From a virus, in IMG/VR virus record IMGVR_UViG_3300025132_000100, positions 1-39,334 of that record: a stretch of 39,334 nt of DNA. One strand, written 5' to 3'. Under the pieces are notes generated by a model. The model made no database searches. It was not told the origin of the DNA and saw only the letters and a list, made by a program, of their open reading frames with translations. Position numbers and translations under genes: made by a program. Of the stretch, positions 4,355 through 37,000 are shown piece after piece. Position 1 is the stretch's first letter. Every line of letters begins with the position of its first letter.

Positions 4355-5227
4355 ATGTCATTATCAAATTTATATTTAACACAACAAATGAGAGAAACCG
4401 ATAGGAATCTTAAAAATGTTATGGACGATGAACTAGAAAGACGTAAAAAAGGCGGTCTTTTTAGTTCAATATTTGGAGGTGTAGGAGGTGTTCTAGGTGG
4501 ATTAGGAGCTACTGCATTAGGTACAGCTTTAGCACCAATAACTGGTGGAATGAGTTTACTTGCAAGTTCTGCTTTAACAGGTGCAGGTGCTTTAGCAGGG
4601 TCACTTGCTGGTTCAAGAGTAGGTGCAGACGTTGGTGGAGGTAGGCGTTCTGATGCTGTTGATTTAGGTATGAATACAGATGTTGTAACTGGAAATAAGA
4701 AAGAATTTGGTAGCGATGTAAAAGATAGATATAGAAGAGATATAAACAATTTTCAAGATACATTAAACAATAGAATATTATCATCAGCTATAAATACTGG
4801 TATAAAATCAGCAGCTTTTGCTTATGCTGGTGGTTTATCAAAACCTACTATGCCAGAAGGAACAATTATAGATGCTTCTGGTAATGCTGTAGAAATACCA
4901 CAAGCTGATATTGCTGGAGCACAAGCATTTCAAGATGCTGGGTATAGTAATGCATTAATTAACCCAGCTAGAAGTTTGCAAGCTCCAATGCAAGGGCCTC
5001 AACCTTTATTTGGGCCAGCAGTTCCAAATATAGCTCCAGTTGCAAATGTAGCTCCAAATCCTATGAGTGGATTAAGTCCGTTATCTAATGAATATCTGGA
5101 TGCAAATAATCTTTTAAACGTTGTTAATGAATCTAGTAATCCATTTTTTCCAAGCAGTATAAACAATCTTGGAACACCACAAAGATTTGCTGGAGTTTCT
5201 GGTCAACCTTATCAACCTTTTAATTAG
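4355..5227 (+). CDS. Ejection-type virion protein with Gly/Ala-rich hydrophobic segment, 290 aa
   Basis: Start is supported by a Shine-Dalgarno GGAG 6-7 bases upstream. Residues about 27-100 form a Gly/Ala/Leu-rich stretch (VGGVLGGLGATALGTALAPI and onward) of the kind found in phage internal proteins that insert into the host envelope. A basic ERRKKGG precedes it, and the C-terminal half is Pro- and Asn-rich. It starts a run of five small genes leading to the giant protein, an arrangement matching ejection-protein cassettes of podoviruses. Function is inferred from composition and place; no named family is recognised. Confidence 0.6.
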   Translation: MSLSNLYLTQQMRETDRNLKNVMDDELERRKKGGLFSSIFGGVGGVLGGLGATALGTALAPITGGMSLLASSALTGAGALAGSLAGSRVGADVGGGRRSDAVDLGMNTDVVTGNKKEFGSDVKDRYRRDINNFQDTLNNRILSSAINTGIKSAAFAYAGGLSKPTMPEGTIIDASGNAVEIPQADIAGAQAFQDAGYSNALINPARSLQAPMQGPQPLFGPAVPNIAPVANVAPNPMSGLSPLSNEYLDANNLLNVVNESSNPFFPSSINNLGTPQRFAGVSGQPYQPFN

Positions 5228-5236
5228 GAGTAATTA

Positions 5237-5863
5237 ATGGCACATACACCTTATCACTTTGATTGGAATCAAACACCTGCTGGTGGTCAACCACCTGCAA
5301 GTACTTCTAGTCCTAATGCATTTTTACGAGATTTTTCCAATGTAAATATTTCTGGGTTAGACGATACTGCTAAAATATTTTTACCAGACACAGGTCAAAT
5401 GGTAAACAACATTGCTATGGCTCGTCAAAATTTTAACAATAATGCATATGCACAACAATTAGCTGGTCAAAATAATTTATTTAACATGACAGGTGGCATG
5501 GGATTAAACAGTATGTCAGAAGGTTTTGGTAGAAGACAATCTAATATAACATCGGGTTTAAGGAATCTAAATCAACAATATCAAACAGGACTGCAACAAA
5601 ATATGGCAAGTTTTAGAGCAGATGTTCTTGGAGAACAATTTAAATATCAAGATGCACTAACAGGTGCAATAAGCAATTTAATTCAATCTGGTGAATACGA
5701 AGATTTACAAATAAGTCCATATGAAGCGAATGACGCACTCAAAAGAAGAAGAAGAAACTATGAAAGTTGGAATCCTCCGGGATATACTGGAACTCCTACG
5801 GAAGGAGAAGTTTTTCAAGTTGGAGATACGCAATGGACATTTAGTAATGGACAATGGGTATAA
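5237..5863 (+). CDS. Putative virion/ejection protein, Asn/Gln-rich, 208 aa
   Basis: Preceded by TTAGGAGTAATTA, a good ribosome site. The protein is rich in Asn, Gln and Gly (LAGQNNLFNMTGGMGLNSMS), with a helical middle (about 100-150) and a C-terminus carrying Arg clusters (KRRRRN) and then a short beta motif ending QWTFSNGQWV. That ending looks like a small binding or packaging tag common at the C-terminus of virion proteins. It lies 9 bases after the previous gene. No family recognised; a structural role is inferred. Confidence 0.55.
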   Translation: MAHTPYHFDWNQTPAGGQPPASTSSPNAFLRDFSNVNISGLDDTAKIFLPDTGQMVNNIAMARQNFNNNAYAQQLAGQNNLFNMTGGMGLNSMSEGFGRRQSNITSGLRNLNQQYQTGLQQNMASFRADVLGEQFKYQDALTGAISNLIQSGEYEDLQISPYEANDALKRRRRNYESWNPPGYTGTPTEGEVFQVGDTQWTFSNGQWV

Positions 5864-5879
5864 TTAAAAGGAGTTTAAA

Positions 5880-6569
5880 ATGGCAATAGATCCAGCATTA
5901 GTAGGCTTTGATGCAGTAAACACATTACAAGATACATTACTTAATTACGTAATGCAAAATAGAATGATGCAAGCAAGAGATAGGCAGTTCAATACACAGA
6001 TGCAATTAGAACGTGATAGATTTGAAGAAGATCGCAGAAGATATGATACTAATTTTCTTGAAGATCAAAAAAGGTATGATACAGATCTTGGTTTTAAGAA
6101 AAGAGACGAGTCTCGTTTAATTAAAGATAGAGCTGATTATAAATTAAAAGAAAAAGCAGGAGCAGATACTTTTAGAGATATTCAAAGTATAGAAAAACAA
6201 AAAGCAGATATAGCTAAATACGATAGAGATTTTATTGAGTTTAAAAATAAATATCGTTTACCACATGGCCTAATGGATTATATTCCGGGATTTAGAAAAA
6301 GATCAGATAAAAATTTAAAGTTAGCTTTTGAGCAAGGTGCTGAACAAAATCCAGCATGGATGCGAGGAATAACTCATTATCAAGAACCAAAAGATTATCA
6401 ATGGAAATCTTATGGCGTAAGACCTGAGTTAAAAGTACCAGAGTTAGGAAATTATAATTTTGTACCTCAATACGCACCAGAGTTATTAGAAGCTCAAAAA
6501 TTATATAACACAGAAAATTTACTTAACATAAGAAATGAATCAATGTTAAATAATATTTTAAATAAATAA
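5880..6569 (+). CDS. Coiled-coil internal virion protein, 229 aa
   Basis: The ribosome site is AAAAGGAG ending 7 bases before ATG. Residues about 25-135 are strongly charged and helical with repeating Arg/Asp/Glu patterns (RDRFEEDRRRYDTNFLEDQK), a likely long coiled coil; the sequence RYDT...LEDQKRYDT repeats locally. The C-terminus is polar with Pro and Tyr. Such proteins often form the inner tube or scaffold for DNA ejection. It shares the word IDPALV near its start with the next gene (MDPALV). Function is inferred from context. Confidence 0.55.
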   Translation: MAIDPALVGFDAVNTLQDTLLNYVMQNRMMQARDRQFNTQMQLERDRFEEDRRRYDTNFLEDQKRYDTDLGFKKRDESRLIKDRADYKLKEKAGADTFRDIQSIEKQKADIAKYDRDFIEFKNKYRLPHGLMDYIPGFRKRSDKNLKLAFEQGAEQNPAWMRGITHYQEPKDYQWKSYGVRPELKVPELGNYNFVPQYAPELLEAQKLYNTENLLNIRNESMLNNILNK

Positions 6570-6579
6570 GAGGTTTGTT

Positions 6580-7224
6580 ATGGATCCTGCTTTAGTAGTT
6601 GAATTAATAGAAAAATATAATAGAAATCCAGATAGATACACAGATGAAGAAGCAGAGTTTATTGCGTCTTTATCTCAAGCTCTAGGAAGAAATTTTAACA
6701 GAGAGAGTAAACCTATTGGTAAAGGATTATTTGACCTTGTTGATAGTGCTACATTAGGACTTGTTCCTGATAGTTTAAGACCTGTATCAAGAGGTGAAAG
6801 TGTTTATGGAGAATCTGATGAAGAAAAGTTTGCTGGGTTTCTTGGAGAAATGGCTGGAGGTACTGCGTTAGGTGCTGGAATAGGTTATGGTGCTATAAGA
6901 GGAGCTAGAGGTATTGCCTCTAAATTCAGAGGCGGTGTAAAAAGTGGGGGTACAGGAAGTCAATCTAACAATTTACTTAACCTGACATCTGGAACTAAAA
7001 ATAAATCTGTTAAACGTTTAAATCCATATTCTAATAGAGATATAGATATAGAAATAAGAAGATTGGAAAATATGGCTGACATGGGAGACTATTATGCTTA
7101 TGAAGCATTAGATGATTTATACAAGTATCGAAATGGTTTTTCTGGAAATATCGACTACAGAAAAAGATTTAACTTTGGTCGATATGATAATATTGATCGC
7201 AGACCAGATGAGCTACCTTTTTAA
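6580..7224 (+). CDS. Small virion protein sharing an N-terminal module with the giant protein, 214 aa
   Basis: Residues about 6-100 line up with the first hundred residues of the next gene: both have an E-L-(I/V)-x2-Y-x3-P-x3-(Y/F)-T-D start, then a helix, an A-x-x-x-G-x-x-F-x-R segment, a G-x3-G/F-D stretch, and a GE...G-(E/H)-(M/L)-x-G-(G/F) hydrophobic segment. Here the hydrophobic part is GGTALGAGIGYGAIRGARG. The remainder is polar and basic. The likely reading is a co-packaged ejection protein whose N-terminal module is a shared virion-targeting or membrane-entry unit. No named family is recognised. Confidence 0.55.
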   Translation: MDPALVVELIEKYNRNPDRYTDEEAEFIASLSQALGRNFNRESKPIGKGLFDLVDSATLGLVPDSLRPVSRGESVYGESDEEKFAGFLGEMAGGTALGAGIGYGAIRGARGIASKFRGGVKSGGTGSQSNNLLNLTSGTKNKSVKRLNPYSNRDIDIEIRRLENMADMGDYYAYEALDDLYKYRNGFSGNIDYRKRFNFGRYDNIDRRPDELPF

Positions 7225-7228
7225 ATAA

Positions 7229-10200
7229 ATGGCATCACAATACGAATCTTATAAAGTACGTGAGTTAGTAACAGCGTATAGGTCAGACCCTACCATGTTC
7301 ACCGATGACCAGTTAGATAAACTGGAAGCATTGGCCTATGATAATGGTATCTCATTTAAAAGAATCAATAGTGAGTTTAATCTAAATAGAGCTGTAAGGC
7401 AGGCATTTGCTGGAGCAGTAGAAGGTTTTACCACATTTGATTTAATGACTGAGAAGCCTCGTAATACAGGCGAGGCTATATTCAGACAAATTGGACACTT
7501 AGTAGGCTTTGCTCCGGGGATTGCTAAAGCTCCTATACTTGCTGGTTCTAAGATAGCTCAAAGAGTTACTGGTAGGGAAACACGTAATCGCTTTACTCAA
7601 GCTGCGTTAGACCATATAGATGTATTCCATGCTAAGTCAATACCTATGCAATTTAGTAAAGCAGGTAAACTAGGTCTTGATGATATCCTTACTAAAACAG
7701 GAGCAGAGTCAGTTAGTTTTTTAAAACGAGGCACAGCAGGTAGGCAAATAGCAGATGAGGCTGTAGGTCTAGCATTTGCAAGCGGTGTAAGTAATATATG
7801 GAAAGGTGAAGATGCAGTATTGGATGGTTTTATTGGTGGTGCAATTGCAGGGGGAGCCTTTGGTGGTATTGGTAATTTTGTCTCTGTAGGTAATTTATAT
7901 AAAGGTTCTCCTCAACAAGTAGAAAGAGCCAATCAAATACTACGTGCAGGAGTAGGCTCAATGGTAACTGGTCTTCCTAGTACACTTGCAGATGAACCTA
8001 CAGAAATGCAGATTTATAATTATCTATTAGGTGGATTTTTTGGATACAATTCAAGACCTGCAGTAGATAAAGAATCTTCTAAATGGTATAATAAAAATAG
8101 AGACCCTAAAGAAAACTTTAGACCAGAAGAGTCTAGAGACTTTAATGACATAAGTAAAGAAGCACAAGATTATATACGTTATGAACATCCAATGGGATAT
8201 GAATCTAGTCAAGGCCAAGCAGGTGGAAGTGCTGGAGTAGCTTTAAAGTATTTAAATAATAAAGCAAAACAAAACGGTCAAAATATAGACTTTAGACAAG
8301 AAGCTATTAATCATTTTGAACGTAATAAGTTAGATTATAATGAAAGAGATATATTTGATTTTTATCGTTCTAAGGCAATGGAATTGTATGAGATTGGAAG
8401 AAACGATATAAAAAATGCAGTTACATTTAAAATTAATGCATATAACAATGAACAAGTTGACCAGATGGATACTGTTCAACGTGACTTGTTTAGTTTAAGA
8501 GATACTTCAAAGAAGATATTTAATAAGACAGATAAATTTGAAACAAGTGTTGATATTGCTCAAACTATTAAAAATACATTTGAACAATCTAATAATGATA
8601 TAGAGATATTTCGTGAAAATATTAAAAATGCATTTGGGAATGCCGTTGATAGGTCTACTGAAAAAGCATTAACTCAATATTTTATAGACAGTTCTAATAT
8701 AATGCAGCCTATTGAATTACCTTATTTAACAGGTAAGAATGCACGTTTAAGATTAGTAGACAATGAAAGAATAGGCGATGTTACTGTTAGAGAAAAAGCT
8801 CCTATGTTGCCTATTCAAAAATTTCTTCCTAATGCAAATATTAAATATATGACACATGCTGTACTTCCTTCTATGGGTGGTAATAGAGCAGTTAAGATAC
8901 TCGGTCAAAAATTAGAAGATGGTAAAATAACATATGACTTAAATCAGGGTGATTTAGGATTACTGAATGACCTTCTTGCAAGTAAGAATAGATATATTTA
9001 CGGAGCTAACAAAGATAAGCTTAATGTATTTAATAGTGATTTTAGAGACGACAATTACACACTTGATGATATTTTTAATATACTTTCTAGATCTGGAAGA
9101 AGCATAGAGGAGATACAAAAAGATTATGATGCTGCACTTCAATTAGAATATGAGATATTTGGTGAGAATGAAAACGTAGCCAACATATTTAGAAGAAAGT
9201 TTATTTCAAATATCGTTAATGATACTGAGATAGAAGGTTTGCCTGTAGAAGAAGCTTACAGGTTTTTACAGAAAGATTCTCCTTATTATAAAGATGTAGT
9301 TGATTTTAACAAACGTATTCAATTAGCAACGACTAGAATGTTTTATATGACACCTTCTAGTTTTAAAGATGTTGCAGATACCAACCAAGGTCAAACATAT
9401 AATATTATACTTACAAACGATAAAGATGTAGCTAATACTGATGGTGGTGCACTTGTAAGAAATGATTTTATGGATGCTAGAAATAATAGCATGGCACTTA
9501 ATTCTAAAGTTACTGGTGCTGATAAGCCTGTTACATTTCATAAAACACCTAATGGTGTATTTGCTCAAAAATCAGCAGGGTTTAGAGCATATCCTTCTAT
9601 GCAGGAGTTTATGAAGAAGAATAAGATACACGAAGTAGTGTACACATCTTCTTCTAAACGTAAAGGTACATTGCCTTTAACAGAATTATCTTATGGTAAA
9701 GATGGTAAGTGGTCTTCTGATAATGTACAACTAATAACTATTCCTATTACAAGTTTGCAAATAAGCTCTGGTACTTATGAGAATACAAATAAGGACACTA
9801 AGAAAGGTCAAGATATACCTATTCAATTCTATGGGCAAATAAACAATACTCAAGCACAGGGTTATGTAAAAAAATATTTTGAAGAAATCTTAGATCCTTC
9901 TCTTAAAGGTTCAAAAGAATCAATAGAATTAGTTAATAAGTTTGAGAATAAAGAATTAGATGTAGAAGGCTTTGCAAAGGAATTTATTGATAATAAGATA
10001 GACCTTTTTGAATTGCCTATAAAATTTGTAGCAGATAAACTAATTAATAATCCTTCTAATCCTGAATCCATATTTTTAATGGATAGGTTAATGAAAGCAG
10101 ATAGCAAATATGAGTTAGATGAAGATGTTAATGAAACATTTGATTTTGACAACGACTCATCTTATGCTGATTTTCACTCTGAAAATGAATCAATGGCATA

Positions 10201-13200
10201 TGCTACAAGAGGTACTCATGTACCTAGAACTACGTTAAGCTTTATAAAAAATAACTATCAAAATGCTTTAAGAAAGTATTTTACAAAACGTATCACTAAT
10301 CCAAGATATAAATATGCTAGTAAAAGTTGGATAGAACCGTATGAATCTAAAGAAGTAGTTCAATATATTGAGTTTGACCCTTTAAAAAAGGGAGATAGGT
10401 CAATTAAATATGAGGAAATATATTTTAATGATGGTCATAGACAAATGCCTGTGGTATTTAGGAACAAGGAATACACTCTTGGCGAACTTTGGAGTAAGTA
10501 TACTAGGGCACTCTCCGAAGGACTTTCCAAAAAGGAGCTTGCTGAGTATGATGAAGCTCTTACTTTTCTTATTATACGTACACCTGCTGATTCAGTTAGT
10601 GGTATACGTGCAGTTCGTCTTAGAGGTTGGACGAATCAGAAAGGTACAGGATCGTTATTACACCCCAAAGACAAAGAATACTCTGGTGGTGCAGACCACG
10701 ACTCCGATAGTGTTAAAATATTTCAAGGTTTAAGCAATGAATTTATGGATTACTATAAGAGAAATGCAGATGAGCGTTCTCGTTGGGTAACAGATACAGA
10801 GTATTTAGATGAACTTAATAATCTTTTTACAAATAAAGATATGCCTCAAGAATTGAAAGATGGATTTAATAATAAGTTTAATATCTTTTCTCCATCACAT
10901 CGTTTTCTTGCTGGAAGAAACTCTAGTACTGGAAAAGATGGATTAGGATTTGGTCTTTCTGGTAAAGGTTATTTAATGAACTTATATGATTATGTTGTTT
11001 CTAATGGTGGCACTATTAAAGATGGTGCTTTAACTATAACAGCCAAAGATAAGGATTCTTTTAGAAAATTTTTAGACCAAGGCACTATGGTTGTTAATAA
11101 ATCTGCAGATTCTAGTAAAGACCCTACTGTATTACAATACAATAAACATAGAGATATACTTTTTAATAGTTTGTTTGACGTTACTCACAAAAAAAATAAT
11201 ACTAAGATAGAATCTTATCACGATTTAATGAAGAATACTTCTCCTAAAATTGAAAAAGATGAAAGAGCAAACAAAGTAGCAGCTATAGTAAATACTGTAA
11301 GACTTAGTAAGCCTAGGCAAACAGCATACAATGAAGATGGTACAAGTCGAGCTAAGGGTTTATTTGAGTATATAAAAGAATTGCATGAAGTAAATAAAGT
11401 ACTAGAAGACTCTGCTCTAGATCAAGTATATCCTTCAGTACATAAAGAGATATATAAAGTATTTGAAAATGGTTTATCTTTTGGTGAATTAAATAAAGTT
11501 CAACAAGCACTTTATAGAAAGACAAAACAAAATTATATAAACAATACTTCTGGTAAACTGGAAGAAGGTAAACCTAAACAATTCTTAACCAAGAGTAAGC
11601 TGTCTGAGTATTTAGAAAAACACTTTGATATATTAGCTAAAGAATTATCTTTTTCACCTGAAAAATCTTTTTATAATACTTTAAAGACAAACCCTAACCA
11701 AGCATTAGATATGTTTGGTAAGGATATGGGTCAGTATGCTACTATGGAATTATTAACTAAACAATTTGTTGATATACAGAATGCTTTTACAGATAAAGGA
11801 AGAATTGTTAATGTAGTAGATGATGTATTTCCTAATGTAAAAGAGAAAGCATTTGCAATTAAAGAACAAGTATCTGAAGTGATGAATCATCCAGAACGTG
11901 ACAATGCTATGAACCTTGATATAGAAGGTAGAATACAAAGCGTCTTAGGTAGACTTCAAGATATGGAAAGAGCAAATGGTATACAGGAAGGATTGTTGCA
12001 AGATTATTTTTCATATTGGTTATTAAGTCCTATACGAAGAAATCTTAGTCCTAACGAACCTGCAAAGCCACAGTTTTATAAGATGCTGCATTCATCTAGG
12101 TCTATTCCTATGAGACCTAAAAGAAATTTCTATAATAAGATGGATGAGATATATAATAGAGCTAATGCAGAAGACGATAAGCCTATTAGAATTGGTAATA
12201 TAAAAAAAGTTTCTAACGAAATATTGCAAACAAATTCAAAGCCATTTGAAACAATGAATGCTTTAGTCAAAAAAGGTGCTTTAGAAAAGATTGCTCTTAC
12301 AGATAAAGACCTTGTAGAAGTAAGAAAACTACAAGACATTATTAAAACAAACCCTGCTGGAGTTGATTTTAATAACTGGTTTATAAATTATACATCAGCA
12401 TTGGAAGGTGCTCCTAGAGATGCAACAACAATTACAATGACTGATGTGATGAATATTAATAAGCATTTAAAAGAAATAGATTCCGTGAAAGCGTTACCTG
12501 TTTATTTAAGACATTGGCATACATCTCCAATGACCATTGAAAGAGAAATGGTAAAGATGAATTTCTTAACTAGAGCTAAAAAAGTTACAAGGATTGTTGA
12601 TACAGCTAGAGGTAAAAGAAATATGGAATTCTATAAAGTTATGAGTCCTATGGAATCTATTAGAAATGCTGTAAATGATATGGATATAAGCATAAATGCT
12701 TTTAATAATAAAAAATTAAAGACAATTGAACCTTTAGAACGGGTATTAAATAATATTTCAGCAAGACCGAATATTAAAAATAATTACATAGAGAATTTAA
12801 TTGAATTCCGTGAAGGAAGATTAATGCTAGATCAAATAGATAAAAGTATTAATAAAGATAAGTTTTTAAAACTTAATAGTGCTGTAACAGAATTCTTTAA
12901 GAAGTCTTGGAATGATTTTGTAGCAACAAAAGATATATCAGGTAGAGATATTCAGTGGGATAGAATTGATAAAGAGCATGATTATGGAAAATTAAATAAT
13001 TATATACAATATGATAAGAATGGAAAGTTTAACATAAAGCTCTTTGAAGATAAAGTAATGAATGCTAAACAGACTGAACAGTTAGTTAGAGCTGTTGGTA
13101 TAGATGGTTTGATGAGATATAATTATGAATATCGTTTAGAACAATTAGTTAAAGATAAAAACCCTAAAGACCCTAAGAAATTTAGAGAATCAAGAAGAGC

Positions 13201-15241
13201 ATCAAATCCATTTGTTCCTCGTAGAAAAAGAGATTTTGATACTTATGTACACCATAGTATTCGTAATGTAAATGAAAAAATATTACTTGAACAAGCAAGG
13301 TGGATGAATAAGCAAATTGATTTAGATAAAAATTTTGGTAAAGGTAAGAAGATTCCTAGAGACCTTGCTTTAGACAATCCATTTTTTAATATTAACGATA
13401 GAATAGCCATTGGTGAAGATTATGAGATTGCTTTTGAAAAGTCTAGTGGTTCTTATGCCTCTCCATTAAAAAAGCGTGGAGATGATCCTATACCATTTAA
13501 AAAGAATACTGAGATATTTAATGATTATCAAGATGCTTTAATAAAAGGATACTTTAGAAATCTAACCAAGTTTAAAGCACAAGGTGATTTAGATGCATTT
13601 TTGATGAATATGAAAGACTATGTACCATCAAGAAATGAAAAAAAGAAATTTGTAAAGTTATACAAAGGTGTATCACTAACAGAAATACCAGCTAAACAAA
13701 GATATAATAATTATGTAGATGTATGGGCAGACTTATTAAGGACATATGCTGAAACAGCTATGGGTTATCAGACTACTTTTTCATCTAAACAGATGACACC
13801 TCAAGGTAAAAAGTTATTACACTTAAATAAATACAATTTATTCTATATTACTTCAGACCAGTTTGTAGCTGGCAAACTTGAAAGAATGTATAAGAGTAAA
13901 CTATTTGCTGGAAAAGATACTATTCCATTTTTAGATAAAAAATTAATACCTAAAGATCCAGAGACTAGGCAGTTGTATTATTATAACTTGATAAGAAATT
14001 TTGGAGCAATGGAAGCAAAGTATCAGTTAATGTCATTGTTATTTAATACAGGTTCTTATGCAACTAATATATTTGGTGGAACTGCACAAACAACAGCATA
14101 TGCTGGATTTGAGAATGTAAAAGACTCTGGAGATATAAAAGCAGTAACCGAGCTTTTACTTACAGATAGTAAAGGAGTTAATAAAGTCTTTTTAAATAAT
14201 GGTAAGCCAGTTACTACTATGAAAGAAATAAGTACTTGGCTTGAAGAAAATGGTTATTATGATAATTACCTTCAAAATGAATTTGATTTTAATCCTGAAT
14301 TAAAGACAAGACTTAAAGATCTTGGTCATAATTTTAGAGATTTTAAGCGAGATATGCTTTATGCTTTGAAAACCAAAAAAGGCAATCGTGATGAAAGCGT
14401 AAAAGATGTTATGAAAAAATATGGAGTTAAAGAAACTCTTGAAAAAACTGGTGGATTCTTTATGCAGGAATCTGAACGTTTTAATCGTAAAAAAGCATTT
14501 TTAGCTAGTGCTATGCAGTATGTAAAAGGAGTTGGTCGACTTGGTAAAGATTTAACTATAGCAGATGACCAAGTAATTGAACATGCAATAAACGGTATAA
14601 GAATGTCTCAATATATGTATCAAAACTCTGAAAGACCTTTATTTATGGCTACATCTACAGGTAAAGTATTCAGTAGGTTTAAACTCTTTGCATTCAATAG
14701 CGTAAGAATACGTAAAGAATTTTACAGACAAGCTAAAGAACTAGGAATGAATCCTAATACAGAAGAGTATAGAAGATTTGAAAGACAAGCAGTTATAGAT
14801 TTATGGATGTACATGCTAGGTGCAGCATTTATGTTTAGTTTATTTGACACGGCTTTACCTCCACCATATGATTGGATACAATCTTTATCTGATTATGTTT
14901 TTGGAACAAAGAACCAAAAAGAGATGGCTTATTTTAATGACCCATTAGGGCCACTTAGTATATTAAAGCCACCTATAGCAAGAATACCTGAAGCAGCAGG
15001 TGAATTACTAACAGGTAATTTTGATGAGTTTACTGATTATACTATGTATACCTTGCTACCATTCGGCAGAGGAATAAGACAAGCTGTTCAATTATCTGAT
15101 GATAGAGTAGGTAGAGGACTTGAACGTGCTCCAGAAATATTATTTAGAATACCTTATAATAAATTCTTAAATAGAATTGAAAAAGCTAAAAAAGACAAGA
15201 GAAGAGCATCTCTTGTTGATGAACTATTAGAAGCATCCTAA
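7229..15241 (+). CDS. Giant virion protein with two-barrel (DPBB) RNA polymerase signature, 2670 aa
   Basis: Seen: residues 1-100 share a module with the previous protein. Around residue 1117 comes IIRTPADSVSGIRAVRLRGW, then SLLHPKDKEYSGGADHDSDS with Asp1156, 1158 and 1160 forming DxDxD. Upstream, NTDGGALVRNDF (Asp738) and SSKRKGTL (Lys810, Lys812) could be the first barrel. Known: multisubunit beta' (NRAP...NADFDGD), QDE-1-like and crAss-like virion polymerases share an R-x-P to DxDxD spacing of about 35-45; here it is 39. The middle Gly of DxDGD is Ser here. The C-terminal third is helical with a hydrophobic LWMYMLGAAFMFSLFDTALP, like large polyvalent injected proteins. Inference: a virion-packaged RNA polymerase injected with DNA to transcribe early genes. 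It ends the late operon; no strong ribosome site is seen at 7229, 4 bases after the previous stop. Alternative: a large inert ejection protein with chance motifs. Confidence 0.72.
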   Translation: MASQYESYKVRELVTAYRSDPTMFTDDQLDKLEALAYDNGISFKRINSEFNLNRAVRQAFAGAVEGFTTFDLMTEKPRNTGEAIFRQIGHLVGFAPGIAKAPILAGSKIAQRVTGRETRNRFTQAALDHIDVFHAKSIPMQFSKAGKLGLDDILTKTGAESVSFLKRGTAGRQIADEAVGLAFASGVSNIWKGEDAVLDGFIGGAIAGGAFGGIGNFVSVGNLYKGSPQQVERANQILRAGVGSMVTGLPSTLADEPTEMQIYNYLLGGFFGYNSRPAVDKESSKWYNKNRDPKENFRPEESRDFNDISKEAQDYIRYEHPMGYESSQGQAGGSAGVALKYLNNKAKQNGQNIDFRQEAINHFERNKLDYNERDIFDFYRSKAMELYEIGRNDIKNAVTFKINAYNNEQVDQMDTVQRDLFSLRDTSKKIFNKTDKFETSVDIAQTIKNTFEQSNNDIEIFRENIKNAFGNAVDRSTEKALTQYFIDSSNIMQPIELPYLTGKNARLRLVDNERIGDVTVREKAPMLPIQKFLPNANIKYMTHAVLPSMGGNRAVKILGQKLEDGKITYDLNQGDLGLLNDLLASKNRYIYGANKDKLNVFNSDFRDDNYTLDDIFNILSRSGRSIEEIQKDYDAALQLEYEIFGENENVANIFRRKFISNIVNDTEIEGLPVEEAYRFLQKDSPYYKDVVDFNKRIQLATTRMFYMTPSSFKDVADTNQGQTYNIILTNDKDVANTDGGALVRNDFMDARNNSMALNSKVTGADKPVTFHKTPNGVFAQKSAGFRAYPSMQEFMKKNKIHEVVYTSSSKRKGTLPLTELSYGKDGKWSSDNVQLITIPITSLQISSGTYENTNKDTKKGQDIPIQFYGQINNTQAQGYVKKYFEEILDPSLKGSKESIELVNKFENKELDVEGFAKEFIDNKIDLFELPIKFVADKLINNPSNPESIFLMDRLMKADSKYELDEDVNETFDFDNDSSYADFHSENESMAYATRGTHVPRTTLSFIKNNYQNALRKYFTKRITNPRYKYASKSWIEPYESKEVVQYIEFDPLKKGDRSIKYEEIYFNDGHRQMPVVFRNKEYTLGELWSKYTRALSEGLSKKELAEYDEALTFLIIRTPADSVSGIRAVRLRGWTNQKGTGSLLHPKDKEYSGGADHDSDSVKIFQGLSNEFMDYYKRNADERSRWVTDTEYLDELNNLFTNKDMPQELKDGFNNKFNIFSPSHRFLAGRNSSTGKDGLGFGLSGKGYLMNLYDYVVSNGGTIKDGALTITAKDKDSFRKFLDQGTMVVNKSADSSKDPTVLQYNKHRDILFNSLFDVTHKKNNTKIESYHDLMKNTSPKIEKDERANKVAAIVNTVRLSKPRQTAYNEDGTSRAKGLFEYIKELHEVNKVLEDSALDQVYPSVHKEIYKVFENGLSFGELNKVQQALYRKTKQNYINNTSGKLEEGKPKQFLTKSKLSEYLEKHFDILAKELSFSPEKSFYNTLKTNPNQALDMFGKDMGQYATMELLTKQFVDIQNAFTDKGRIVNVVDDVFPNVKEKAFAIKEQVSEVMNHPERDNAMNLDIEGRIQSVLGRLQDMERANGIQEGLLQDYFSYWLLSPIRRNLSPNEPAKPQFYKMLHSSRSIPMRPKRNFYNKMDEIYNRANAEDDKPIRIGNIKKVSNEILQTNSKPFETMNALVKKGALEKIALTDKDLVEVRKLQDIIKTNPAGVDFNNWFINYTSALEGAPRDATTITMTDVMNINKHLKEIDSVKALPVYLRHWHTSPMTIEREMVKMNFLTRAKKVTRIVDTARGKRNMEFYKVMSPMESIRNAVNDMDISINAFNNKKLKTIEPLERVLNNISARPNIKNNYIENLIEFREGRLMLDQIDKSINKDKFLKLNSAVTEFFKKSWNDFVATKDISGRDIQWDRIDKEHDYGKLNNYIQYDKNGKFNIKLFEDKVMNAKQTEQLVRAVGIDGLMRYNYEYRLEQLVKDKNPKDPKKFRESRRASNPFVPRRKRDFDTYVHHSIRNVNEKILLEQARWMNKQIDLDKNFGKGKKIPRDLALDNPFFNINDRIAIGEDYEIAFEKSSGSYASPLKKRGDDPIPFKKNTEIFNDYQDALIKGYFRNLTKFKAQGDLDAFLMNMKDYVPSRNEKKKFVKLYKGVSLTEIPAKQRYNNYVDVWADLLRTYAETAMGYQTTFSSKQMTPQGKKLLHLNKYNLFYITSDQFVAGKLERMYKSKLFAGKDTIPFLDKKLIPKDPETRQLYYYNLIRNFGAMEAKYQLMSLLFNTGSYATNIFGGTAQTTAYAGFENVKDSGDIKAVTELLLTDSKGVNKVFLNNGKPVTTMKEISTWLEENGYYDNYLQNEFDFNPELKTRLKDLGHNFRDFKRDMLYALKTKKGNRDESVKDVMKKYGVKETLEKTGGFFMQESERFNRKKAFLASAMQYVKGVGRLGKDLTIADDQVIEHAINGIRMSQYMYQNSERPLFMATSTGKVFSRFKLFAFNSVRIRKEFYRQAKELGMNPNTEEYRRFERQAVIDLWMYMLGAAFMFSLFDTALPPPYDWIQSLSDYVFGTKNQKEMAYFNDPLGPLSILKPPIARIPEAAGELLTGNFDEFTDYTMYTLLPFGRGIRQAVQLSDDRVGRGLERAPEILFRIPYNKFLNRIEKAKKDKRRASLVDELLEAS

Positions 15242-15313
15242 ATTAGGCAGTAAATAACGCACAAATAATGCTGTCAAATAGTACCTATTCATATATGTTT
15301 TCTCTCACTCAAG

Positions 15314-15361
15314 TCACGTTGACATCGTAGAGGTCGGCGGTTCGACTCCGTCATCGCCCAC
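15314..15361 (+). other. attP: 3' half of a tRNA-Val(GAC) gene
   Basis: The segment folds as the 3' half of a tRNA: anticodon stem TCACG/CGTAG with loop TTGACAT (anticodon GAC), variable loop AGGTC, T-arm GGCGG-TTCGACT-CCGTC, acceptor strand ATCGCCC and discriminator A. No matching 5' half (a GGGCGAT start and D-arm) is present upstream, so it is not a working tRNA gene. A tRNA 3' end beside an integrase is the classic phage attachment core: recombination with the host tRNA-Val gene would restore the tRNA. Exact crossover limits cannot be set without the host sequence. Confidence 0.8.
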
Positions 15362-15425
15362 TTGACGACAAATTAGTTTTACTTGTGTGTTCGTTTTTTT
15401 AACGGAGACAAATAGGAGACAAATA

Positions 15426-16301
15426 ATGTCGTCAATCTTTAAACATAGAGGTGTTTACTATTTACAATTGACTCTTAATTATAATACAATAAGAAGATCA
15501 CTTCGTACTAAAGACAAACGTACTGCTAAAAAAAGAGCAAAGGATTTAGAGCCTACTTTATATAGTCAATTAGTTAATCCTAATACTGAAAAGTATATTC
15601 CATTCAATGACCTTATTAAATTGTATTTACAAGATGATGAACATGAATGGTCTAATGCTACAAAATTGACCAATATACAGATATTAAAAAAGTATAAGAA
15701 AGGAATTCCTTTACCTAGTAATGAAGCTACTAAGATAGGAGTACAAGGACGTATAAATGCGGTGATTAACTGGGGCAAATCTCACGGTTTTGTGACGAAC
15801 AGAGATAAGTATCGACTCAAGAAAAAGCCAGCCAGAAATAGAGTATTTTCTGATATAGAATTAATAAAAATATTTAAGTATTCTACTAATTCTGACTTTA
15901 AAAGATTTGTTCAATTTGCTTATTATACTGGTGCAAGGCGTGGTGAGCTTTGCAATATGAAAGAGAATGACATTCATGATAAATATTTTAAAACCATTGG
16001 TAAGACAGGAGAGAGACTTGTTCGTTTAAATAGTCAGGCAAAAAGCATATTAGAAAAACAAGGTTGTCTATGGCATTACAATACTGATTACGTAACTCAT
16101 CACTTTAAAAAAAACCTACGCAGGATGAAAATAGCAAAGGGATGCTTTCATGACCTACGTAGGACTTTTGGGTTAAACCTTATTAAAGCAGGTATGCCAA
16201 TATATCAAGTAAGTAAATTACTAGGACATACTAGCATAGCTACTACAGAATCACATTATGCTCCGTTATTAATAACAGACATAGATGATTTTACATTATG
16301 A
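15426..16301 (+). CDS. int: Tyrosine-recombinase integrase, 291 aa
   Basis: Catalytic residues are in order: Arg171 (TGARRGEL), Lys193 (GKTGERLVRL), His242-x-x-Arg245 (FHDLRRTF), His268 (LLGHTSI) and nucleophile Tyr278 (ESHYAPL). The N-terminal 60 residues are basic (YLQLTLNYNTIRRSLRTKDK), like arm-binding or SAM-like DNA-binding domains. The start at 15426 has GGAG at 15415-15418; an in-frame ATG at 15387 has no such site. It lies 65 bases from the tRNA-Val fragment, which it should use as attP. It meets the minus-strand early genes tail to tail with a 6-base overlap. Confidence 0.93.
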   Translation: MSSIFKHRGVYYLQLTLNYNTIRRSLRTKDKRTAKKRAKDLEPTLYSQLVNPNTEKYIPFNDLIKLYLQDDEHEWSNATKLTNIQILKKYKKGIPLPSNEATKIGVQGRINAVINWGKSHGFVTNRDKYRLKKKPARNRVFSDIELIKIFKYSTNSDFKRFVQFAYYTGARRGELCNMKENDIHDKYFKTIGKTGERLVRLNSQAKSILEKQGCLWHYNTDYVTHHFKKNLRRMKIAKGCFHDLRRTFGLNLIKAGMPIYQVSKLLGHTSIATTESHYAPLLITDIDDFTL

Positions 16302-18626: not shown

Positions 18627-18628
18627 TG

Positions 18629-18641
18629 TAACTCCTACGTT
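18629..18641 (-). promoter_or_regulatory. Leader element AACGTAGGAGTTA (copy G)
   Basis: Exact 13-base leader holding the ribosome site of the 66-residue protein. Same words occur before the genes starting at 23112, 25929, 27331 and 35660, and with one mismatch before 28090. Confidence 0.65.
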
Positions 18642-18654
18642 ATGATTATGCTTT

Positions 18655-19995: not shown

Positions 19996-20025
19996 AAAAG
20001 GGCACAAATAAAGGAATCTGTGCCC
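19996..20025 (-). terminator. Intrinsic terminator after the primase-helicase gene
   Basis: On the minus strand GGGCACA (20025-20019) pairs with TGTGCCC (20006-20000) and is followed by TTTT. It lies 7 bases beyond the primase-helicase stop. The loop contains GATTCCTTTATT, similar to the repeated early element. Confidence 0.7.
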
Positions 20026-23112: not shown

Positions 23113-23118
23113 GTATCT

Positions 23119-23162
23119 TAACTCCTACGTTATTATTATTTAATCTTTAATAAAGGAAACGG
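23119..23162 (-). promoter_or_regulatory. Early element A plus leader
   Basis: Leader AACGTAGGAGTTA occupies 23119-23131 and the 18-base element 23145-23162 (minus: CCGTTTCCTTTATTAAAG). It matches copy B at 14 of 18 positions. It lies about 32 bases upstream of the ERF start. Confidence 0.5.
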
Positions 23163-23276
23163 TGCCAATCAAAACAGCTCAGATGCGGAGGAGGACTGTT
23201 TTTTATATTGTAGTTGTGAATTGACACCATTGTCCTTTAGGTCTTTAGGGATATCCGGCTTTGTAAAGTTTCCTTT
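23152..23276. ncRNA. Structured intergenic segment with terminator-like hairpin
   Basis: AAAGGAAAC (23152-23160) can pair with GTTTCCTTT (23268-23276) over 108 bases, enclosing GGTG/CACC and a terminator-like hairpin AAAACAG/CTGTTTT at 23171-23202 followed by T on both strands. This gap separates the DUF932 gene from the ERF gene. It could be a terminator plus leader or a separate small RNA; the strand is undecided. Confidence 0.4.
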
Positions 23277-25929: not shown

Positions 25930-25932
25930 ATT

Positions 25933-25975
25933 TAACTCCTACGTTAGTTTTATATATCATAGATAAAGGAAACAG
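25933..25975 (-). promoter_or_regulatory. Early element B plus leader
   Basis: Leader AACGTAGGAGTTA at 25933-25945; 18-base element CTGTTTCCTTTATCTATG at 25958-25975 (minus). A hairpin CAGTAG/CTACTG directly precedes the element on the minus strand, so it also resembles a terminator for the upstream gene. Confidence 0.6.
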
Positions 25976-26021
25976 TAGAGCCACTACTGCTATTTATTTA
26001 CGATGTGTTATTTATTTTAAA

Positions 26022-26744
26022 TCAAATCAAAAACTCAGATTTAGTTAATATCTTTTTTGGTGAACTTTTCCAGTCTAACAAAATAGAACACATGGTATTA
26101 ATTTGTTTGTCTTTGTATTTGTAAATGACTGGAAAACTCATGTAATGATCTCCAACTACAAATTTGAATGATTCAAATAATGATGGTAAAGTATTTGATA
26201 TTTTCTTCAATAGTTTTTTTGAAGAATTATCTATTATTTCATCAATAGGATGACTATCCATATGATACCATCTGGAATTATCAAAGTAGTTGTGATTTTT
26301 AGGTAAGCCTAATAGTTTTTCTAGTTTTTTAGAATCTTTGGTAATGTTTATTTTACGCTCCATCTTTTTAAAACTAAGAACATTTCTAACATGAACAGTA
26401 GATGTCATATCTGCATTAATGTCTTCCCATTGCAATTTTTGAATAGGTTGATTTGTTAAATAAGATTTAAAAGTTTCAAGCATTACTTCTTGTTGTTCTA
26501 TTTTATCTTTTTGCAGTTTAATGATATATTTACTATCCAATTCCATTTTACTTCCGCTAATTTCAACAGTATTGTTAATTTCATTAAAATAACGTTTTTC
26601 TATTTTCATTAGATTTGATTCATTAGGCTTTTCTCCATTCAACCAATTATATAAAGTTCTTCTGGATACTCCTGTATTAGTAGAGACTTTAGAAAGTGGT
26701 ATATCTGTAGATTTAAGCCATTTTATTACTCTTATTTCGTTCAT
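26022..26744 (-). CDS. HTH transcription regulator (possible repressor), 240 aa
   Basis: Residues about 12-38 form a helix-turn-helix: LSKVSTNTGVSRRTLYNWLN, with the XRE-like 'GVS..TL.NWLNG' recognition part. The rest is helical and charged, of unknown fold, possibly for oligomerisation. GGGG lies 5-6 bases before the start at 26744; a longer frame to 26819 lacks it. In a temperate phage with an integrase this is the best repressor candidate, but no LexA-type cleavage motif is visible. It faces a 254-base control region. Confidence 0.68.
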   Translation of the reverse strand: MNEIRVIKWLKSTDIPLSKVSTNTGVSRRTLYNWLNGEKPNESNLMKIEKRYFNEINNTVEISGSKMELDSKYIIKLQKDKIEQQEVMLETFKSYLTNQPIQKLQWEDINADMTSTVHVRNVLSFKKMERKINITKDSKKLEKLLGLPKNHNYFDNSRWYHMDSHPIDEIIDNSSKKLLKKISNTLPSLFESFKFVVGDHYMSFPVIYKYKDKQINTMCSILLDWKSSPKKILTKSEFLI

Positions 26745-26763
26745 ATTATCCCCTTTTGAACGT

Positions 26764-26850
26764 GTGTAATATATAATTATTGTTGCACATAACCTAGCAA
26801 TATTTGCTTTTATATGCACATATTACGGCATTTGTTTGTTTGTATTACAC
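26764..26850. promoter_or_regulatory. Possible operator region upstream of the HTH gene
   Basis: Contains TGCACATA twice (26784-26791, 26815-26822) and an inverted pair GTGTAATA (26764-26771) / TATTACAC (26843-26850). Repeats next to a regulator's start are typical operators. No clear consensus promoter is visible. The region 26745-26998 has no gene I can support. Confidence 0.4.
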
Positions 26851-27334: not shown

Positions 27335-27386
27335 TAACTCCTACGTTGGTTAGTTTTGGCAGAATTGCCAAAGATTAAGGAAGCAG
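27335..27386 (-). promoter_or_regulatory. Early element C plus leader
   Basis: Leader 27335-27347, hairpin TTTGGCA/TGCCAAA 27355-27372, element CTGCTTCCTTAATCTTTG 27369-27386. The minus-strand leader plus start is AACGTAGGAGTTACAAATG, identical to that before the capsid gene at 35660. Confidence 0.6.
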
Positions 27387-27403
27387 TAAATACTACTTAT
27401 TTG

Positions 27404-27733: not shown

Positions 27734-27755
27734 TATTTACTCCGATTGATTAATT

Positions 27756-27773
27756 CATAGATTTAGGATACAG
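27756..27773 (-). promoter_or_regulatory. Early element D
   Basis: CTGTATCCTAAATCTATG on the minus strand, 22 bases before the start of the coiled-coil gene. The usual leader is reduced to CGGAGTAAATA. A hairpin GCTCC-TTATA-GGAGC lies just upstream (27784-27798). Confidence 0.55.
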
Positions 27774-27777
27774 TAGT

Positions 27778-28093: not shown

Positions 28094-28146
28094 TTACTCC
28101 TACGTTGATTAGTAATTAGGCACAATGCCATAGATGGAGGAAGCAG
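28094..28146 (-). promoter_or_regulatory. Early element E plus leader
   Basis: Leader at 28094-28106 (AACGTAGGAGTAA, one mismatch), hairpin GGCA-TTG-TGCC at 28119-28129, element CTGCTTCCTCCATCTATG at 28129-28146. Order and spacing match copy C. Confidence 0.6.
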
Positions 28147-28186
28147 TAGTACTATCTAGTTGTGTAGGGATTAGTATATGTATGGG

Positions 28187-28752: not shown

Positions 28753-28794
28753 ACTACTAATTAGTAGTGGATTACTAATTAGTAGTAGTTTTTT
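28753..28794 (+). terminator. Terminator between the 68-residue gene and terminase
   Basis: ACTACTAATTAGTA (28753-28766) pairs perfectly with TACTAATTAGTAGT (28773-28786) across loop GTGGAT, then a T tract at 28789-28794. Both arms contain the palindrome ACTAATTAGT. Confidence 0.7.
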
Positions 28795-35659: not shown

Positions 35660-37000
35660 ATGGCAGCTACAGAAAAGCAGCTAATGCAAGGAGCTTCTGG
35701 TGTACTTTATACGGATAGACGGAATTTTTACGTAGATCCGCAGGTCACTAAGGAGCTATGGACAGACGTTGCACCTTTTACTACAATGATTAGTAATCAG
35801 GAAATGCGAAATGTCCCAGACCCAGTTTTTAAGATGTTTGAACATCGTAATCCTTGGGTAAAACAATCTTTCAAGGCAGGTGCAAGTTCCGCTACATCAA
35901 TAGCTGATAATGATGTAGCAGTAGCAATTGACACCATAACTGAAATAAAAGGCCTACCACCCTGTGATGATTCATGGATTGGATTGGTGGCTGAATGTTG
36001 GAATGCCGCTGAAGATACTAAGCTAGGAGTTGTGGTAGTTAAAGGAGTTACAGATACAAGTCATGTGACAGTTGTATCTTTAAGTGGAGCTTTTAGCCCA
36101 ACAACTAGTAGTGTTTATCATGTAATTGGTAATGCACATGGTGAAGGTGGTTCAGCTCCAGAAGCATGGGCAGACGAACTAGACGTTGTTTACAATTCTT
36201 GTCAGATTTTTAAAACTCCTCTTCAAGTTACTGGTACGCTAGAAGCAGCAGTACTTCGTGGAGAGTCATCTGAATTAGCTAGACTTCGTAGACAAAAAGC
36301 TCAAGAACACAAAATGCAGAAAGAAAAAGCATTTCTTTTTGGTTCTCGAGTTGGTGGTACGGGTTTACAAGAAGCATCTTATGGTGCTGGTAATAACGAC
36401 ACTAACAACGATGAAACATTTGCAGATGGTGGAAGAGTTGATTCAAATGGAAATCTAATTCGTTCAACATACGGAATAATTTCAGCATTAGAAAAATATG
36501 GCGAGACCACATCGACACACGATGCTCAAAACATATTTACTGTTGATAGTTCATATGCTTACAGCAATTTTGTAGACGATATGGAAAAAGTATTCCAGTA
36601 TATCCCAGAAGCAGGTGTAAAACGTGCTTTTGTAGGTGCTGGTGCTTTAGGATATTGGTCTAAAATGGCTGGTGCTTCAGGTATGGCTGGAAACTCAGGT
36701 TGGACAGTTGCTCTTGGAGATATGAAACGTGACTCTCTTGGTTTTAACTATAGAGTACTTGAAACACCTCATGGAATGTTGCAGTTAATTCCAACTCCAG
36801 CATTAAGAGGGCCTTACAACAAGTACATGGCTGTAGTATCTGATGAGAATCTATTCCATGCAGTTTATCGTCCATCTATGTATCAGACAAACATTAAGAC
36901 CGATAATGCCTTTGATGGTGTTAAAGATCAATACATGTCTGATGAAGGTGTTGGTATACAGCTAATTGAAAGTCATCACTTGTTTAAAATCACAGCGTAA
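35660..37000 (+). CDS. Major capsid protein, 446 aa
   Basis: Position after scaffold, length, and a pattern of an N-terminal arm (YTDRRNFYVDPQVTKELWTD), long spine helix region (SSELARLRRQKAQEHKMQKE) and a C-terminal P-domain-like part (GFNYRVLETPHGMLQLIPTP) fit the HK97-type fold capsids of podoviruses. It should form the shell. The strong leader and hairpin before it suit the most abundant virion protein. No cleaved delta domain is apparent. Confidence 0.85.
   Translation: MAATEKQLMQGASGVLYTDRRNFYVDPQVTKELWTDVAPFTTMISNQEMRNVPDPVFKMFEHRNPWVKQSFKAGASSATSIADNDVAVAIDTITEIKGLPPCDDSWIGLVAECWNAAEDTKLGVVVVKGVTDTSHVTVVSLSGAFSPTTSSVYHVIGNAHGEGGSAPEAWADELDVVYNSCQIFKTPLQVTGTLEAAVLRGESSELARLRRQKAQEHKMQKEKAFLFGSRVGGTGLQEASYGAGNNDTNNDETFADGGRVDSNGNLIRSTYGIISALEKYGETTSTHDAQNIFTVDSSYAYSNFVDDMEKVFQYIPEAGVKRAFVGAGALGYWSKMAGASGMAGNSGWTVALGDMKRDSLGFNYRVLETPHGMLQLIPTPALRGPYNKYMAVVSDENLFHAVYRPSMYQTNIKTDNAFDGVKDQYMSDEGVGIQLIESHHLFKITA

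Follow-up and report, generated by a model that had tools for sequence, protein, structure and literature searches.

A giant protein of a small podovirus outside Crassvirales is probably a variant of the crAss-type virion RNA polymerase

In crAss-like phages, an RNA polymerase is packaged in the virion, is injected, and drives rifampicin-resistant early transcription (PMC10136315, citing the phi14:2 study). In the Thermus phage P23-45, gp96 is described as a two-barrel polymerase that is fused to the tape measure protein, and it is described as transcribing the pre-early genes from AT-rich promoters (PMC10770324). The giant protein that we describe here would be a third case of this kind, from a small podovirus in which the polymerase is fused to a part that resembles ejection core proteins.

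The protein is encoded in the IMG/VR virus record IMGVR_UViG_3300025132_000100, a contig of 39,334 bases. (We refer to this whole stretch of DNA as the window.) We think that it is very probably a virion RNA polymerase of the two-double-psi-barrel kind, which would start early transcription on the incoming genome. The gene and the parts of its product are as follows.

7229-15241, plus strand: gene for the 2670-residue giant protein, in which ejection-type parts at both ends flank the proposed virion RNA polymerase (58 full-length relatives)
7229-8725, plus strand: residues 1-499, N-terminal part, conserved, with hydrophobic stretches rich in Gly at about 88-110 and 196-220
8726-12088, plus strand: residues 500-1620, predicted single-chain two-barrel RNA polymerase region (AlphaFold2, Foldseek, VIA)
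9242-9946, plus strand: residues 672-906, predicted first barrel (DPBB-B) region with the invariant D738, G739, K766, K781, and K810
10550-10726, plus strand: residues 1108-1166, predicted core of the second barrel (DPBB-A), R1117 ... G1153-G1154 ... D1156/D1158/D1160
10694-10708, plus strand: putative DxDxD metal-binding motif, DHDSD, residues 1156-1160
12026-15238, plus strand: residues 1600-2670, C-terminal half, predicted to be helical, with a weak resemblance to ejection core proteins of the T7 type (AlphaFold2, VIA, hhalign)

A sequence-only reading of the window had singled out this gene and proposed that its product is a two-barrel RNA polymerase. Its description of the second barrel was exact: the open reading frame at 7229-15241 on the plus strand encodes 2670 amino acids, and the segment RTPADSVSGIRAVRLRGW ... 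LLHP ... GGADHDSDS, which ends in the GADHDSDS of that reading, corresponds to residues 1117-1161. LHP lies at residues 1144-1146, the three aspartates are D1156, D1158, and D1160, and 39 residues separate R1117 from the first of them.

Searching the giant protein directly against Pfam, PHROGs, PDB sequences, and 50,697 named phage records gave no relative, and profile searches with its family did not match any PDB sequence. We gathered relatives by stepwise scans of viral contigs, which gave 3 close full-length proteins and then others that were 25-32% identical. The last scan gave 150 matching stretches, of which 80 were kept. We extracted 58 related open reading frames of at least 2400 residues; these are 18-67% identical to the window's protein over residues 500-1620. 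(Some are near-identical to each other, and 44 were left at below 93% identity in the polymerase region.) The giant protein founds a family without previous annotation, with 59 full-length members including the window's protein. We found no description of this family in the literature that we searched, although the supplementary survey of PMC10770324 may list a member.

Some members of the family have unusual features. In the polymerase region of one relative (L070), a stretch inserted at residues 805-922 of its own giant protein matches phrog_9995, whose function is unknown (E = 1.6e-36). Another relative (alignment A6) has an inserted domain in its C-terminal half that matches the alkylated-DNA-repair family phrog_21963 (E = 7.6e-23). 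In locus L064, at 6448-16179, the polymerase gene is broken into three overlapping frames, by a frameshift or an assembly error. A further member (L033) lies on a 46-kb contig of the Prochlorococcus single-cell genome AG-436-M02, which is either a hint about the host or a phage that was sorted along with the cell.

We then compared residues across the family. D738, G739, K766, K781, K810, R1117, P1119, S1124, G1125, G1153, G1154, D1156, D1158, D1160, and D1294 are identical in 59/59 members. In particular, R-x-P followed by the DxDxD metal-binding motif of the second barrel is present in every member, and its retention in all 58 other full-length relatives rules out a chance origin. The distance from the R of R-x-P to the first aspartate is 39 residues in all 59 members and also in 10/10 crAss-like RNA polymerases. 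LHP is partly conserved (H1145 in 47/59 and P1146 in 17/59). For the first barrel, the sequence-only reading had suggested D738-G739 together with K810 and K812. D738-G739 and K810 are indeed invariant, but K812 is absent from the invariant lists of the wider alignments, and the second invariant lysine of this barrel is more likely to be K781.

To compare these proteins with known enzymes, we used ten crAss-like or related RNA polymerases, including AGO48955 of phi14:2, as well as gp64 and gp96 of P23-45. (AGO48955 has 2180 residues, and from its size we take it to be gp66 of PDB 6VR4.) In profile-profile alignments with hhalign, residues 672-906 matched the first-barrel region of the crAss-like enzymes (P = 2.1e-10). 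Residues 1108-1166 matched their second-barrel region (P = 3.2e-5) over 59 gapless columns that place DHDSD on DFDID. When the barrels were swapped, when N- and C-terminal parts of the family were compared instead, or when the crAss profiles were reversed, these controls gave P = 0.08-0.76. Only the crAss profile matched: hhalign found no match between the family and the single sequences of phi14:2, P23-45 gp64, or gp96. In a tblastn search with the L086 motif region, the top ranks went to crAss "putative RNA polymerase" genes, but E was about 1, which makes this a weak, though independent, hint. K781 and K810 of the first barrel may contact the substrate. As for polymerases of the T7-like single-subunit type, no such domain in the giant protein was matched by Pfam or PHROGs, and N4 is absent among the matches listed by VIA for the polymerase region.

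The predicted structure agrees with the profile matches. We modelled residues 500-1620 with AlphaFold2 and the 44-sequence alignment (mean pLDDT 87.2, pTM 0.84). With Foldseek, the best match among solved structures was the crAss-like virion RNA polymerase (6VR4, E = 2.8e-11); QDE-1 came next (about 1e-6), and multisubunit polymerases gave weaker matches. VIA gave its highest score to QDE-1 (Z = 14.7 over 640 residues), with 6VR4 at Z = 13.1 over 787 residues, P74 gp62 at Z = 12.9 over 463 residues, and gp64-type structures at Z = 11-13. The structural alignment extends to residue 918 of the model (residue 1417 of the protein) and covers, as a whole, the region where a bridge helix and trigger loop would be expected. 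In a library of viral structures, the model matched several A0A516 entries (the best at 1.4e-25) as well as crAss-like proteins, so relatives of the giant protein already sit in public databases, without a visible name. Thus, the two-barrel assignment of the sequence-only reading stands: the region is predicted to fold like 6VR4 and QDE-1, both barrels match those of crAss-like enzymes by profile, and the catalytic residues, including the three aspartates, are kept throughout the family. Neither a lack of the double-psi barrel nor homologues without the aspartates, which would have counted against the assignment, came to light.

Could the fold have been kept while the activity was lost or changed? 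The protein might, for instance, be an ejection scaffold that binds DNA, or it might copy RNA templates as QDE-1 does. In the structural comparison, QDE-1 and plant RDR2 reach or exceed the score of 6VR4, and the glycine of DxDGD varies. (Position 1159 is Ser in 37 of the 59 members, Ala in 12, Ile in 8, and Gly in 2; the two with glycine are L026, with GGADKDGDS, and L086, with GGADLDGDK.) However, the three aspartates and both lysines are invariant in 59 members at 18-67% identity, which would be unexpected for a decayed active site, and on this basis we rejected a decayed polymerase. The crAss-like enzymes have Ile or Val in place of the glycine, and the phi14:2 enzyme is reported to be active despite its Ile (PMC10136315). 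Also, the phage's genome is double-stranded DNA, and the nearest profile match is a DNA-dependent enzyme from a phage. We consider a loss or change of activity to be quite improbable. The serine at position 1159 had been seen as a reason to doubt the activity of the giant protein; given the residues at this position in the crAss-like enzymes and in L026 and L086, that doubt is removed.

We also considered the remainder of the protein and its genomic context. The neighboring genes are:

6580-7224, plus strand: 214-residue protein directly upstream of the polymerase gene, a conserved neighbor
4355-6569, plus strand: three more small genes (290, 208, and 229 residues), presumably of the ejection operon

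As the sequence-only reading had proposed, the polymerase gene ends this operon: it is the last gene of a conserved late operon of structural and ejection genes. In 51 of the 58 full-length loci, the 214-residue neighbor precedes the polymerase gene, mostly within 1 kb. The first 500 residues of the giant protein are conserved, according to the conservation profile, and hydrophobicity analysis shows their Gly-rich hydrophobic stretches. This N-terminal part has a weak similarity to the 214-residue neighbor (21% identity over 118 residues, BLASTP E = 0.009). Elsewhere in the window, between the first rightward gene and the late operon, is a terminator-like 15-pair inverted repeat followed by a run of T (28753-28786).

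The C-terminal half (residues 1600-2670) is predicted by AlphaFold2 to be nearly all helical, at a lower confidence than the polymerase region (pLDDT 72.8, pTM 0.74). Foldseek found no significant match to it in the PDB (none below 1e-3). With VIA, the only matches above Z = 3 are three T7-type ejection core proteins, namely the T7 core (Z = 6.5), the E1004 core (Z = 5.7), and the PhiM1 ejectosome (Z = 5.5), and the next is at 2.9; scores of 5.5-6.5 are within the range of common helical arrangements. A profile of the gp16 family, built from three sequences, aligns near the C-terminus of the giant protein (hhalign P = 0.009, versus 0.56 for the reversed control). This weak resemblance to T7-type ejection core proteins is only suggestive. 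Together with the position of the gene in the operon, it points indirectly to injection of the giant protein along with the phage DNA.

Alternatively, the protein could be a genuine RNA polymerase that is made in the cell and not packaged, like the non-virion gp64 of P23-45, and that transcribes middle or late genes. P23-45 is described as having genes for both virion and non-virion kinds (PMC10770324). But the polymerase gene of the window closes the structural and ejection operon and adjoins the conserved 214-residue partner, and the polymerase is fused to over 1000 residues that resemble ejection core proteins. Fusion to large proteins is described for the virion RNA polymerases of crAss-like, N4-related, and P23-45 phages (PMC10770324). 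An unpackaged polymerase therefore seems very improbable, even more so than a loss of activity, and we favor a virion RNA polymerase.

What kind of phage is this? The window's portal is P22-like, its capsid belongs to the SU10 family, and its large terminase subunit (TerL) is nearest to those of a Vibrio phage and of N4-group phages, at about 26%. These features indicate a podovirus outside Crassvirales, and none of TerL, portal, or capsid places it within that group. The phage also encodes an endolysin, Erf, and a DnaB-type helicase/primase, and it has a pair of lysogeny genes:

15387-16301 and 26022-26819: integrase and HTH repressor genes

The sequence-only reading had called it a small temperate podovirus. 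For the window, the P22-like portal and the lysogeny genes agree with this, but temperate life may not extend to the group as a whole. The integrase and the HTH repressor are found in just 3 of 13 records (the window and 2 of the 12 others), always together, so phages of this group seem to acquire or lose the two genes jointly. The 10 records that lack them either look lytic or are incomplete. Just upstream of the integrase is a sequence that resembles the 3' end of a tRNA (GAGGTCGGCGGTTCGACTCCGTCATCGCCCA, 15330-15365). It may be the phage attachment site; we looked for it in 150 cyanobacterial genomes and did not find it.

If the giant protein transcribes the incoming genome, then which promoters does it use? 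From repeats in the window, we traced an element, TACTGCTTCCTTTATCTATGA, that lies about 20-40 bases before the start codons of five early genes that run leftward, Erf among them:

28128-28148, minus strand: candidate early promoter motif, TACTGCTTCCTCCATCTATGG
27755-27775, minus strand: candidate early promoter motif (diverged), TACTGTATCCTAAATCTATGA
27368-27388, minus strand: candidate early promoter motif, TACTGCTTCCTTAATCTTTGG
25957-25977, minus strand: candidate early promoter motif, TACTGTTTCCTTTATCTATGA
23144-23164, minus strand: candidate early promoter motif upstream of the Erf gene, CACCGTTTCCTTTATTAAAGA

A promoter matrix that was iterated at a low threshold drifted, so we used strict patterns instead. 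The pattern CTGNTTCCTTNAT has 38 matches in 16 of 17 related virus records, and all 38 are on the strand opposite the polymerase gene. About 0.5 matches would be expected by chance in 700 kb, and the reversed pattern has 0 matches in the related records. (Nor is there a copy of CTGNTTCCTTNAT in a 1.5-Mb Prochlorococcus assembly.) Among distinct sites, 21 of 27 are intergenic, while intergenic bases make up 10%. Across 2.9 million viral contigs, a stricter pattern matched 45 contigs, 26 of which are from the window's phage group, as are 12/12 contigs with at least 2 copies. The polymerase was found on 7 of the group's contigs with this strict motif; most of the others are fragments.

The simplest reading is that TACTGCTTCCTTTATCTATGA is an early promoter used by the injected polymerase, and we regard it as a candidate. 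Instead, it might be an operator for the lysogeny repressor or a promoter for the host's RNA polymerase, with no relation to the phage polymerase. It does lie in intergenic regions of the early strand and near the repressor gene. However, the motif is present in all 13 of the records that we examined for lysogeny genes, and because 10 of these lack the integrase and repressor, a lysogeny operator is unlikely. The motif is not a palindrome, either, and sigma-70-like sites in the early region show no excess over chance (55 versus 66.5 expected). Taken together, an operator or a host promoter is the less likely explanation, though by no means a remote one. It is possible that TACTGCTTCCTTTATCTATGA is a host promoter that depends on an unusual sigma factor or a phage activator. 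The motif could be read by the host's RNA polymerase with a phage factor instead of by the giant protein.

Other elements are also repeated in these genomes. The early element has a second form, a hairpin at 20002-20022 on the minus strand, GGGCACAGATTCCTTTATTTGTGCCC, whose loop region contains TTCCTTTAT. In many relatives, this hairpin stands in front of the same small gene, and it is reminiscent of the promoters of phage N4, which are hairpins too. Ahead of several early genes is an extended ribosome-binding sequence, AACGTAGGAGTTAA (18628-18652, 23118-23142, and 25932-25956); the major capsid gene at 35660 has it as well.

We propose that the giant protein is made late, with the ejection proteins, is packaged, and is delivered into the cell with the DNA or ahead of it. 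The C-terminal half and the Gly-rich N-terminal part probably help the protein to be packaged and to cross the envelope. Between them, about residues 500-1420 would form a single-chain DNA-dependent RNA polymerase of the crAss-like/QDE-1 kind, in which D1156, D1158, and D1160 hold the catalytic magnesium ion and the first barrel turns K781 and K810 toward the active center. Transcription of the incoming genome would begin on the strand opposite to that of the polymerase gene, from promoters of the TTCCTTTAT type. The leftward early genes, including those for the Erf recombinase and the DnaB-type helicase, would thus be expressed before the host's RNA polymerase acts, or without it. (The conservation in the family, the profile matches, the fold, and the spread of the motif come from the computations themselves; that the protein is catalytic, is carried in the virion, is injected, and recognizes the motif are steps that we infer.) A more specific proposal, which we offer tentatively and do not favor over its alternatives, is that a large and hitherto unrecognized group of small marine podoviruses, both lytic and temperate, has its own crAss-type polymerase fused to a T7 gp16-like ejection protein, and that this one protein helps to form the entry channel and transcribes the entering DNA from a set of dedicated TTCCTTTAT promoters. 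If true, phages with genomes of only some 40 kb would couple genome entry to transcription.

If the giant protein is a virion RNA polymerase, then two-barrel enzymes of this kind extend beyond crAss-like phages and one group of Thermus phages to widespread small marine podoviruses, some of them temperate. Because a candidate promoter comes with the polymerase, promoter recognition by the two-barrel class would be directly testable. These phages would also offer a compact model in which to study the passage of an injected polymerase through the tail and a possible coupling of entry to transcription. And the diverse family sequences, natural DxDGD and DxDSD active sites among them, add to the sampling of a poorly known clade that includes the RNA-interference enzymes.

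How does the giant protein compare with known systems? It shares its predicted fold class with QDE-1 and the other RDR polymerases of eukaryotic RNA interference, but those are cellular enzymes that use RNA and DNA templates, and their sequences are about 10% identical to it. T7 gp16-type ejection core proteins are likewise large and helical and are encoded at the end of the ejection operon, and they are ejected, as we propose for the giant protein. T7 gp16, however, carries an endolysin domain and lacks an RNA polymerase, and the fold score of the window's C-terminal half against this group is weak. Phage N4 is a podovirus with a giant injected protein that contains an RNA polymerase, which is also what we propose for the window's phage, but the virion RNA polymerase of N4 is a T7-type single-subunit polymerase without double-psi barrels. 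Like the window's phage, as we interpret it, P23-45 is described as having a two-barrel RNA polymerase domain in a giant injected protein (gp96) and AT-rich early promoters. P23-45 is a long-tailed siphovirus, however, and its polymerase is fused to a tape measure protein and is near the N-terminus instead of being central.

The closest known enzyme is that of the crAss-like phages (AGO48955), which is the best match by both sequence profile and Foldseek. It too is a very large protein encoded among structural genes, and it too has DPBB-B and then DPBB-A in a single chain, with R-x-P and a spacing of 39 residues to DxDxD. Nevertheless, the relation in sequence is undetectable without profiles, and the giant protein has DHDSD where the crAss-like enzyme has DFDID. 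The phages differ as well: the window's is a podovirus of roughly 40 kb with a P22-like portal, an N4-group TerL, and an SU10-type capsid, and its relatives are sometimes temperate. Also, the window's polymerase is joined to a C-terminal half that resembles ejection core proteins. Judging from its sequence and its modelled structure, we conclude that the giant protein is probably a variant form of the virion RNA polymerase of the crAss type, here in a small podovirus that is not crAss-like.
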